Shown here one piece after another: positions 59,750 through 64,000 of a stretch of 64,000 nt of DNA. The position numbers and the translations under genes are program-made. The DNA is from Candidatus Thiodiazotropha sp. (ex Monitilora ramsayi). Its GTDB lineage: Bacteria > Pseudomonadota > Gammaproteobacteria > Chromatiales > Chromatiaceae. The notes beneath the pieces were generated by a model. It ran no database searches and had not been told where the DNA came from. It saw only the letters and a program-made list of their open reading frames with translations. Location: NCBI GenBank assembly GCA_025655575.1, contig JAHXIP010000006.1, forward strand, positions 124,001-188,000. The letters run 5' to 3'. How positions within the stretch are numbered: the first letter of the stretch is position 1; the number at the start of each line of letters is the position of its first letter.

Positions 59750-59925
59750 TGCCAGATGTTTCCTTTGATATCCTCAATATTCCATCTTCCTGTTGGCCTC
59801 ACAGGCAGTCAAGGGCTAAGTTTTTAATTCCCATCGCCGCTACATCTGTATGGACAATATCTGACTACACCATCCAGAAACCCTATCGATGCTGGAAACA
59901 GAACCCTTGTAAGCGAAGAAATCAG

Positions 59926-61659
59926 ATGAAAAACGCACCACCCATCAAACGCCTTGCACTGATCGTCGAGGATGAGGAGACAAACAGGCTCATCCTGAAG
60001 TCTCTGGTTAAAAAGCAGGGTTACGACGTAGTAGAGGCAAAAAACGGTGCCGAGGCGGTCAAATGCTTTCACGAACACGAGCCCGACCTGGTGTTTATGG
60101 ATGTGATGATGCCGATAATGGACGGCTATGAGGCCACTACCAAGATAAAACAGGCGGCAGGTGACCATTTTGTACCCATTATATTTCTCACCGCCATGTC
60201 CGACGAAAAAGCCCTGGCACGCTGTGTCGAGGTAGGCGGAGACGACTTTCTGGCCAAACCGTTCAGCTTCACCCTGCTCTCCGCCAAGGTAAAGGCGATG
60301 GAACGCATCCGCTCCCTGCACCAGGCAACCCGGATGCTCTATAGCCGTATGCAACGGGATGAGGAGATTGCAGAGCAGGTCTTCAGCGGCGCCGTAGTGG
60401 CGGGCAATGTGGCATTGGATCAGATACGCAGTCTGTTGAAACCTGCCAGTGTTTTCAGTGGCGATCTTCTGTTGACGGCTTTCGCACCATCCCATGATCT
60501 ACATATTCTCCTGGGTGATTTTACAGGACATGGCCTGGCCGCAGCCCTGGGTGCGTTACCGACTTCCGAGGTATTCCGCTCGATGACGGCCAAGGGATTT
60601 GCCCCCCAGCAGATTCTTTTCGCCATCAACAACAAGCTGAATGACCTGCTGCCAACCGGCATGTTTCTCGCCACACAGTTCGTTAAGGTCGATTATCATC
60701 TCGATCACATTATGATGATCAACTGTGGTATGCCTGACTGCTTTGTATTTGACCACAAAGAAGGTCAGATTAAACACACAGTCGGCTCACACTCTCTCCC
60801 CCTGGGGATTGCTGCCGACATCAACTTCAAGGATGACATCCACTACATACCTATCGAAGAGGGGAACCGGGTCATACTCGCCACTGACGGTGTAACAGAA
60901 GCCCGCAATGCCGATGGTGAATATTTTGGTGAGGAGCGGCTCATTCAGTCCATCTGCGACGGTAACGAAGGCGGTTACCTCATCGATAGACTGGAAAAGA
61001 ATCTGGAAAACTTCTGTCTTGATGCACCTCAGGATGATGATATCAGTGCAGTTGAAATCCCTTTGATACCCGAGCTGCTGCCAGGTTGGGAGAAACCACG
61101 ACCCGTTACGCTCTCAGGAGACAAGCAGCCGGAAGTCCTATTGATGCAAGGGCACGATGACTGTATTGAGTTCCATCTCACATTGCACGGCAGTCAATTG
61201 CAGCATGCCGATCCGGTTCCTATCCTCATCAACTACATACAGGAAACCGCAGGATTGCATGAGCATCGCCGCCCACTTTTTACTATTTTGACTGAGCTTT
61301 ACATCAATGCGCTGGATCACGGCATTTTGCATCTCGACTCAAAAATAAAACAGGGTGAGGATGGTTTTACCAACTACTTCCAGCAACGCGAACAGCGGCT
61401 ACAATCGCTGAGTCAGGGGCAGATACGCATCGGATTGCGAATTCACACGCTCGAGGATGGTGGCTACATGGTCATACAGATTGAGGACAGTGGGCGCGGT
61501 TTTGACTTTGAACAACATAAACCCAAACAGACTGAGGAAGCGTTGTTTAGCGGACGAGGCATTCTACTGATAAAATCGCTCTGTAAATCACTGCATTACA
61601 CCGAGCCCGGTAACAAGGCAGAAGCTGTTTACGTTTGGAATAACCAGAATGCATCGTGA
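59926..61659 (+). CDS. REC - PP2C (SpoIIE/RsbU-type) - HATPase_c (RsbW-type) regulator
   Basis: REC (EDEETNRLILKSLVKKQG...DLVFMDVMMPIMDG), PP2C (GDFTGHGLAAALGALP, LATDGVTEARN), anti-sigma-like ATPase (ELYINALDHGILH, IEDSGRGFDF, GRGILLIKSL). Start reassigned. Confidence 0.88.
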   Translation: MKNAPPIKRLALIVEDEETNRLILKSLVKKQGYDVVEAKNGAEAVKCFHEHEPDLVFMDVMMPIMDGYEATTKIKQAAGDHFVPIIFLTAMSDEKALARCVEVGGDDFLAKPFSFTLLSAKVKAMERIRSLHQATRMLYSRMQRDEEIAEQVFSGAVVAGNVALDQIRSLLKPASVFSGDLLLTAFAPSHDLHILLGDFTGHGLAAALGALPTSEVFRSMTAKGFAPQQILFAINNKLNDLLPTGMFLATQFVKVDYHLDHIMMINCGMPDCFVFDHKEGQIKHTVGSHSLPLGIAADINFKDDIHYIPIEEGNRVILATDGVTEARNADGEYFGEERLIQSICDGNEGGYLIDRLEKNLENFCLDAPQDDDISAVEIPLIPELLPGWEKPRPVTLSGDKQPEVLLMQGHDDCIEFHLTLHGSQLQHADPVPILINYIQETAGLHEHRRPLFTILTELYINALDHGILHLDSKIKQGEDGFTNYFQQREQRLQSLSQGQIRIGLRIHTLEDGGYMVIQIEDSGRGFDFEQHKPKQTEEALFSGRGILLIKSLCKSLHYTEPGNKAEAVYVWNNQNAS

Positions 61660-61821: not shown

Positions 61822-63012
61822 ATGGCAAAGACCCTTATTACCGACTCTTTTGAGGGAACCACCACACCGTTTCTCAGGGGTATTCTGACTCGATCCCTCA
61901 CGGATGCCGGGCTATCATTCGAAAATGCATACCAACTTTCCAGCGAAATTCGTCAGCTAATCAGTAATAAACCTGATATATCGACACAAGAACTGCGACG
62001 TCTGGTACTGAGTGAACTCAAAAAACTTAATGAAACCGATATCATAGAAGCTTACGAATCCAGCAGTCAGGTTGCCACAATCAAAGTATGCAGCCGATCT
62101 GGCGTGAGCTCGCCTTTTTCACACATAGAGCATCGTCGCTCACTGACTTCCACCGGCCTTTCCGCTGATAAAGCCTCTTTCATTACGCAATCACTCTATC
62201 AGCAACTTGCCGACTCCATGCAGGAAGAGGTTCAAAGTGACGATATCGGAAGAATTACCTATGAAGAGCTGAAACGCCAGTTCGGTAAAGAGGCGGCAAA
62301 GCGCTATCTTGTGTGGATAGACTACAAACGTGGCAGCCGTCCGCTTATCCTGTTGATCGGCGGCACAACCGGTTGCGGAAAGAGTACCATAGCCACCGAA
62401 GTCGCCCACCGGCTTGGCATCATACGCACACAGTCCACCGATATGCTGCGAGAAGTCATGCGCATGCTGATCCCTGAGCGACTGCTTCCCGCCCTACATA
62501 CCTCTTCTTTCAATGCATGGCGAAAAATGCCTTCTATTAAAGAGGTTAAGGAGATCACTGAGGAGCTGATGATTAATGGCTATTTACATCAGTCTGAGCT
62601 GCTTTCCGTACCTTGTGAAGCTGTAGTCCATCGAGCGCTTAATGAGCGCGTCTCTTTGATTGTTGAGGGTGTCCACATCCACCCGGCATTAACGGATCGA
62701 TTCAAGCAGGTGGAGAATGCCGTCATCGTGCCAATCATGCTTGCAGTATTGAAGCAGGACAAACTCAAGCTGCAACTTAAAGGCAGAGGTGTCACCTCTC
62801 CCAAGCGCAGTGAAGAGAGTAAGTACCTGACAAACTTCGAATGCATCTGGCTGTTACAGTCCTATCTGCTATCGGAAGCCGATAACAGCACCATGCATAT
62901 CATTGAAAATAATGACAAAGAGAAGACAACTGACCGGGTGATGCGATCCATCATCGAGGTACTGCAAAAGGATTTTAATGCCAAGGTGGATGATATCTTC
63001 AACATAGAATAA
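61822..63012 (+). CDS. 2-phosphoglycerate kinase-like protein with ATP-cone domains
   Basis: Two ATP-cone-like N-terminal segments; P-loop LIGGTTGCGKSTIATEVAHRLGI; LIVEGVHIHP. Confidence 0.85.
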   Translation: MAKTLITDSFEGTTTPFLRGILTRSLTDAGLSFENAYQLSSEIRQLISNKPDISTQELRRLVLSELKKLNETDIIEAYESSSQVATIKVCSRSGVSSPFSHIEHRRSLTSTGLSADKASFITQSLYQQLADSMQEEVQSDDIGRITYEELKRQFGKEAAKRYLVWIDYKRGSRPLILLIGGTTGCGKSTIATEVAHRLGIIRTQSTDMLREVMRMLIPERLLPALHTSSFNAWRKMPSIKEVKEITEELMINGYLHQSELLSVPCEAVVHRALNERVSLIVEGVHIHPALTDRFKQVENAVIVPIMLAVLKQDKLKLQLKGRGVTSPKRSEESKYLTNFECIWLLQSYLLSEADNSTMHIIENNDKEKTTDRVMRSIIEVLQKDFNAKVDDIFNIE

Positions 63013-63028
63013 TTAAGAGAGCGTTATC

Positions 63029-64000
63029 ATGCTGACCTCCTATAAAGGCCTGATGATTGTTATTGACGGCTTGGGTGACAGGGGAATTCCGGGTTTCGGA
63101 GGACAAACACCACTTGAAACAGCCGAAACACCGAACATGGACAGACTTGCCGATGCAGGTCAGTGTGGCCTGATCGATCCGCTGCATCCCGGTATGCCGG
63201 TCGGTACCCATACCGGCATGAGTCTGCTATTCGGTTTACCGCGAAAGCAGGCATTGAAACTGGCGCGAGGACCGGTAGAAGCCGCCGGCATAGGCTTTAA
63301 TCACAAAGAGAACGCCATCTACATCCGCTGCAACTTCGCCACGCTGGAGAAAAGCGGGCAAAAATACAAAATCCTCGATCGGCGAGCTGGGCGAATCGAT
63401 AAAGGGTTCAGTCAGCTGGCATCAGATCTGGGCGAACTCGATCTCGGTGAGGGTATTCATGCCTGTCTGCATCCAGCCACTCAACATCGCGTGGTACTTA
63501 AGCTCAGTGGTGATCATCTGTCTCACCGTATTTCCAATACAGATCCTGGCAACCACTATCGTACACAGGGCTTACTCACCTGCAAGGCACTCGATGATGA
63601 AGACAGCGATGCCGTTCGTACTGCAGCAGCGGTCAATCGCTTAACCGACCTCATTTATGAGCGTTTCGCAGAGCACCCGGCCAACCAACATCGAGTTGCC
63701 CAAGGCCTCTTGCCAGCGAATGGTATAATCTGTAGAAGTCCTGGGGAGCTGCATAATATCAAGACAATACTGCAACATTTCCAAGTCAGTACAGCCGTTA
63801 TCTCCGGCGAGGAAACTATCTTCGGACTGGGCAATCTTTTCGGTTTTACGCTATTTCGCGACCCCTGTTTTACCGCACTGCCCGATACGGATTTACAGAA
63901 GAAAGTCGCAACCGCTCTAGCCGCGCTGCAAAACCATGACTTGGTATTCCTACACATCAAGGGACCTGACATCTGTTCTCACGATCAGGATCCAGTCAGC
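63029..64000 (+). CDS. archaeal-type phosphoglycerate mutase (ApgM-like), truncated by window end
   Basis: MLTSYKGLMIVIDGLGDRGIPGFGGQTPLETAETPNMDRLADAG...LHIKGPDICSHDQDP; open frame to end of window (absent from ORF track because no stop). Confidence 0.85.
   Translation, partial: MLTSYKGLMIVIDGLGDRGIPGFGGQTPLETAETPNMDRLADAGQCGLIDPLHPGMPVGTHTGMSLLFGLPRKQALKLARGPVEAAGIGFNHKENAIYIRCNFATLEKSGQKYKILDRRAGRIDKGFSQLASDLGELDLGEGIHACLHPATQHRVVLKLSGDHLSHRISNTDPGNHYRTQGLLTCKALDDEDSDAVRTAAAVNRLTDLIYERFAEHPANQHRVAQGLLPANGIICRSPGELHNIKTILQHFQVSTAVISGEETIFGLGNLFGFTLFRDPCFTALPDTDLQKKVATALAALQNHDLVFLHIKGPDICSHDQDPVS

Follow-up and report, generated by a model that had tools for sequence, protein, structure and literature searches.

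A conserved 2-phosphoglycerate-kinase-like and ApgM-like gene pair within a phosphate gene cluster of Candidatus Thiodiazotropha

2-Phosphoglycerate kinase (2PGK) is known as an enzyme of the cyclic 2,3-diphosphoglycerate (cDPG) pathway in methanogens. For one methanogen, a case has been made for cDPG as a store of both carbon and phosphate (PMC1224877). Like archaea, Thermus and Deinococcus have both 2PGK and the archaeal-type mutase COG3635, as was noted in 2005 (PMC1274311). In rice, seeds contain more InsP6 and total phosphorus when a 2PGK homologue is overexpressed (PMC4844318); this relative from plants, Lpa1, influences phosphorus storage in the seed through a reaction that is unsettled. 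By title and abstract, no link between a bacterial 2PGK and phosphate genes was encountered in the literature found, a collection in which subscription journals are mostly not represented.

Candidatus Thiodiazotropha comprises sulfur-oxidising symbionts of lucinid clams. The window, i.e., the whole 64,000-nucleotide stretch of DNA analysed here, lies on contig 6 of a 3.9-Mb genome of this host, and its nearest named relatives are likewise Candidatus Thiodiazotropha, with 87–98% identity over the kinase. The window encodes, on the forward strand, a 2PGK-like kinase of 396 aa (61822..63012, +), followed by an ApgM-like enzyme of the alkaline-phosphatase superfamily of 424 aa (63029..64000, +, continuing to 64303 beyond the window). 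Both genes had been predicted by a sequence-only reading, and both were confirmed as open reading frames with profile matches and, for the kinase, an intact P-loop.

The N-terminal part of the kinase consists of two separate ATP-cone domains (PF03477), the first at 61855..62055 (+, residues 12–78, 30.8 bits) and the second at 62086..62325 (+, 29.3 bits), each above the Pfam gathering score of 25.8 bits. The order characteristic of 2PGK, in which the ATP-cone precedes the P-loop kinase, is present, along with the motifs GGTTGCGKST (the P-loop, residues 180–189, 62359..62388, +) and TDMLREVMR; residues G180, G181, G184, G186, K187, S188, and T189 are invariant among the 10 diverse relatives compared. 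The best-matching family model by far is PRK04220 (2PGK, COG2074; 7e-83), whose equivalog cut-off is missed (278.5 vs 343 bits). PRK12337, the model for double-cone 2PGK, is matched with 1.2e-74 over aligned positions 97–475 of 492, cones included, again below the equivalog cut-off (251.6 vs 603 bits), while the match to the mevalonate-3-phosphate 5-kinase model PRK12339 is weak (64.9 bits vs a cut-off of 250). The assignment to a 2PGK-type kinase with a double ATP-cone is therefore upheld, since both cones pass Pfam and PRK04220 is the best match, although under its equivalog cut-off; by homology, the substrate would be 2-phosphoglycerate (2-PG). AlphaFold models of the kinase and the ApgM-like protein, with shallow alignments, reached pLDDT values of only 37 and 36.

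The ApgM-like enzyme passes the ApgM subfamily model TIGR00306 at full length (323.8 bits vs a cut-off of 320), carries matches to PF01676 and PF10143 and to the archaeal ApgM structures 2zkt, 3idd, and 3kd8, and misses the cut-off of the ApgM equivalog PRK04024 (338 vs 489 bits). Residues D13, D314, H318, D351, H352, and H361 are invariant among the paired sequences, and we take them to be the two-metal ligands, as in known iPGM structures. The alignment with 2zkt places Thr60-His61 (63206..63211, +) at the Ser-Asp site of classical ApgM. The nucleophile position is occupied by Thr, followed by His, in 41/41 paired ApgM loci read, the catalytic serine of the subfamily being missing throughout, and Thr-His occurs in 0/34 unpaired ApgMs; archaeal and unpaired proteobacterial ApgMs display Ser-Asp or Ser-Gly, and two unpaired sequences display Thr-Asp. 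As a separate observation, an ApgM encoded on a Macrococcus plasmid (L087:2992-4227), annotated as a phosphoglycerate mutase, has Thr-Asp for Ser-Asp, and its gene follows those of a DASS anion symporter and a LysR regulator.

Threonine is the working nucleophile of the ENPPs, which belong to the same superfamily (PMC11677397); the same article cites a 4000-fold decrease in kcat for the Ser-to-Thr variant of E. coli alkaline phosphatase. Judged from its residues, the Thr-type ApgM is probably active, yet not an ordinary mutase. A canonical GpmI is encoded by the host and by each of the other paired genomes (50/50), so the paired ApgM is not the needed glycolytic mutase, and its candidacy as the sole phosphoglycerate mutase of the cell was rejected. 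The replacement of the catalytic serine by threonine, together with the presence of GpmI in every paired genome, renders an ordinary mutase role doubtful; hence, of the archaeal-type iPGM homologue described in the sequence-only reading, the ApgM family membership stands and the mutase activity does not follow. Additionally, no GpmA was detected above the cut-off in the host genome, in which a single partial match reached 29 bits against a threshold of 81.7; because the host is without a recognisable GpmA, 2,3-bisphosphoglycerate (2,3-BPG) is unneeded there as a mutase cofactor.

Lack of conservation of the pair in relatives had been named beforehand as the outcome on which the proposed pathway would fail. 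In a survey of 212 genomes of the order, the kinase is present in 69 and an ApgM close to the paired type in 51; in 51/51 of the latter, distributed over 15 genera, the kinase is located directly 5′ of the ApgM on the same strand, with a gap between the matched parts of 5–479 bases (median 38). Chance adjacency is thus rejected. Both genes are found in 22/22 genomes of the genus, and eight other genomes of the order lack the kinase and encode a distant ApgM. Of 369 genomes in a class-wide sample, 15 have a kinase of full or nearly full length, two of these genomes being Thiodiazotropha, and the pair extends to four more gammaproteobacterial families (f215, f180, f127, and f184), so the pairing survived its test. 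Sampling of 299 Pseudomonadota genomes yielded, apart from the host, no real match to 2PGK. The scan of genome contigs returned congeners only, that of viral contigs returned no relatives, and the plasmid search retrieved only distant Deinococcota kinases and unpaired ApgMs.

The kinase–ApgM pair is inside a phosphate gene cluster. The gene 5′ of the pair encodes a response regulator–SpoIIE/PP2C phosphatase–HATPase_c protein (RR-PP2C; 59908..61659, +; Pfam Response_reg 3.2e-29, SpoIIE 2.6e-36, HATPase_c_2 5.8e-8). The sequence-only reading had pointed to the DNA past position 64000; here, the ApgM-like reading frame ends at 64303 and is followed, on the same strand, by the polyphosphate kinase PPK1, a universal stress protein (Usp), and the Na/Pi cotransporter NptA with a PhoU domain, and then by a CorC-type CBS protein on the opposite strand and by PhoB-PhoR, where the names CorC, PhoB, and PhoR derive from their sequences and from family matches of homologues. 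The RR-PP2C gene is shared with genus g212, in which a histidine kinase intervenes and the order is RR-PP2C, histidine kinase, 2PGK, ApgM, PPK1, Usp, NptA, CorC; the PPK1-Usp-NptA-CorC part is thus common to Thiodiazotropha and g212. One g212 genome contains a doubled PPK1-Usp unit 3′ of the pair (L183:10242-15674). Around PPK1 in seven relatives from outside the genus, the Thiodiazotropha gene order does not occur. A search for a Pho box 5′ of the pair gave nothing beyond chance (2 weak matches in 20 kb, with 2.2 expected), and the promoter and terminator scans at the locus performed no better than shuffles.

Several kinases of the pair clade without an ApgM adjoin PhoU_div (DUF47) and Pit (PHO4), often with a calcineurin-like phosphoesterase; at L211, this phosphoesterase occupies the usual position of the ApgM, with Usp and NptA coming next. 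Kinases of other families are found near PhoU_div-Pit, PhoR-PhoB, or PPK1. A small P-loop protein of about 207–244 aa was also observed directly beside Pit with PhoU_div, often accompanied by the calcineurin-like phosphoesterase (L206:6263-6889, L211:7500-8231, L213:7300-7920, and L247:12323-12907); the L206 copy had no match in an NCBIfam search.

With redundant kinase loci removed, leaving roughly one for each genus and subtype, and with a gene list fixed after inspection of the neighbourhoods, PPK1, NptA, Pit, or PhoU_div lies near the kinase at 14/43 loci against 1/20 controls, a small set of arbitrary 18-kb stretches from related genomes (one-sided Fisher p=0.014). When the subfamily adjoining CHASE-domain histidine kinases is left out, the figures are 13/32 and 1/20 (p=0.004). 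The control stretches are longer on average, which works against enrichment, and some kinase contigs are short. Many paired loci, among them L061, L062, L178, L185, L186, and L194, have no phosphate gene in the stretch read, in some cases because the contig ends. The enrichment is support, not proof; nevertheless, the suggestion of a phosphate-storage role made in the sequence-only reading gains ground from the PPK1/NptA/PhoBR and PhoU_div-Pit contexts.

In the kinase tree, the pair clade stands apart from a clade adjoining CHASE histidine kinases and response regulators, as well as from the cNMP-binding and GAF fusions. A few lines of the pair clade seem to have lost ApgM, with 5 changes needed, including one artefact of the duplicated row L025. 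The second 2PGK-like subfamily, at 32–36% to the window kinase among loci of the order, adjoins a CHASE-domain histidine kinase (L202, L204, L205, L208, L212, L214, L215, L249, and L262), in several cases with a small response regulator also beside the kinase, and is likely a signalling cassette. The 2PGK-like domain is linked to a cNMP-binding domain in L063:5318-6451 and to a GAF domain in L065:199-1683; that one catalytic domain is attached to such varied sensors of small molecules suggests tight regulation of the kinase output. At L064:1-2777, a double-cone kinase directly follows an apparent pyruvate kinase, which was identified by eye from its translation.

The presence of GpmI in all paired genomes and the absence of a GpmA above the cut-off in the host imply that the explanation of the pair lies in neither glycolysis nor cofactor priming. 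We propose, at a probability of roughly 0.4, that the pair constitutes a dedicated phosphate-buffering module that is ATP-regulated and reversible and probably operates on 2,3-BPG. The two ATP-cone domains would sense the adenine nucleotide pool and gate the kinase, which may use ATP to phosphorylate a small three-carbon acid phosphate, most likely 2-PG to 2,3-BPG, at times of ample energy and phosphate. Probably transcribed together with the kinase, the ApgM-like enzyme would employ its retained two-metal phosphotransfer site and the threonine nucleophile to turn 2,3-BPG over, most likely as a phosphatase/phosphotransferase yielding phosphoglycerate and Pi, in a cycle that can be likened to a bacterial Rapoport-Luebering shunt. 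In the lines without ApgM, a metallophosphatase may replace the Thr-type enzyme. Alongside polyphosphate kinase, PhoBR, and Na/Pi or Pit transport, the module could act either as a soluble store from which phosphate is quickly drawn or as a phosphate reporter. The CHASE-kinase subfamily is counter-evidence to storage, as it points to signalling instead; the pair and its phosphate context together suggest an unrecognised phosphate-storage or phosphate-signalling branch. More tentative is the wider formulation of a bacterial phosphate-buffer/signal cycle with links to Pho and phosphate-transport genes in several gammaproteobacterial families. In such a cycle, 2,3-BPG or a close analogue would accompany polyphosphate in soluble form, made and broken down by a 2PGK-type kinase under ATP-cone control and an ApgM derivative with a threonine nucleophile.

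The main rival to the phosphate-buffer reading is a different kinase substrate, e.g., a phosphate of inositol or of another polyol or acid, in which case the pair would make and break a chemically different phosphate signal or storage compound. The kinase remains under the cut-off of every 2PGK model, its weak match to the mevalonate-3-phosphate 5-kinase shows that substrates have changed within the fold family, and its partner carries Thr-His for Ser-Asp; furthermore, its relatives are fused to cNMP-binding or GAF domains or lie beside CHASE histidine kinases, and for the rice homologue, an inositol monophosphate kinase function has been proposed (PMC4844318). However, the kinase matches the 2PGK models far better than any others, and a partner of the phosphoglycerate mutase type fits phosphoglycerate best, which leaves this rival a real but rather unlikely one.

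An improbable alternative is that the ApgM-like enzyme works as a mutase and channels 2-PG made from 3-PG to the kinase, forming a one-way branch from 3-PG to 2,3-BPG off carbon fixation, the product of which other phosphatases degrade. The adjacency and the kinase–ApgM order, the full-length pass of the ApgM model, and the kept metal sites are consistent with such a branch, but every paired genome already encodes GpmI, and the catalytic serine has given way to threonine, a change whose cost to E. coli alkaline phosphatase, as cited in PMC11677397, was noted above.

A methanogen-like cDPG pathway for an osmolyte or thermoprotectant, to which the sequence-only reading had also pointed, is very improbable: the presence of a 2PGK-like kinase is the sole point in its favour, whereas cDPG is reported from thermophilic methanogens only (PMC10690619). 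Among the genes adjacent to the pair, none resembles a cDPG synthetase by Pfam, and the neighbourhood is one of phosphate uptake and storage, not osmoadaptation, so this part of the earlier suggestion gains no support. The least probable explanation, priming of a cofactor-dependent phosphoglycerate mutase with 2,3-BPG, its known cofactor, is rejected for the host, which has GpmI, an enzyme that works without 2,3-BPG, and only the sub-threshold GpmA match, with the reservation of a diverged cofactor-dependent mutase.

The recurrence of a bacterial 2PGK-like kinase beside polyphosphate kinase and phosphate transporters offers a tractable entry to the real substrate of the family, and a strictly linked ApgM with a swapped nucleophile provides a test case for a mutase fold turned to a new reaction. 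Compared with the described systems, the window kinase shares the P-loop kinase motifs and the ATP-cone of archaeal 2PGK (PRK04220/COG2074), e.g., that of Methanothermus fervidus, but contains two ATP cones, scores under the equivalog cut-off, and resides among phosphate genes rather than those of the cDPG pathway. Its alignment with the double-cone 2PGK of Thermus and Deinococcus (PRK12337) takes in the cones, at 251.6 against 603 bits, and the mevalonate-3-phosphate 5-kinase (PRK12339) is a related P-loop kinase fold with a weak match (64.9 against 250 bits). The paired ApgM exhibits full-length homology and common metal ligands with archaeal ApgM (TIGR00306; PDB 2zkt and 3kd8), from which it differs by Thr-His for Ser-Asp and by missing the PRK04024 cut-off. 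The rice Lpa1/OsPGK1 protein is likewise a 2PGK homologue linked to phosphorus storage (PMC4844318); however, it is a plant protein that acts on seed phytate as a proposed inositol monophosphate kinase and has no known ApgM partner.
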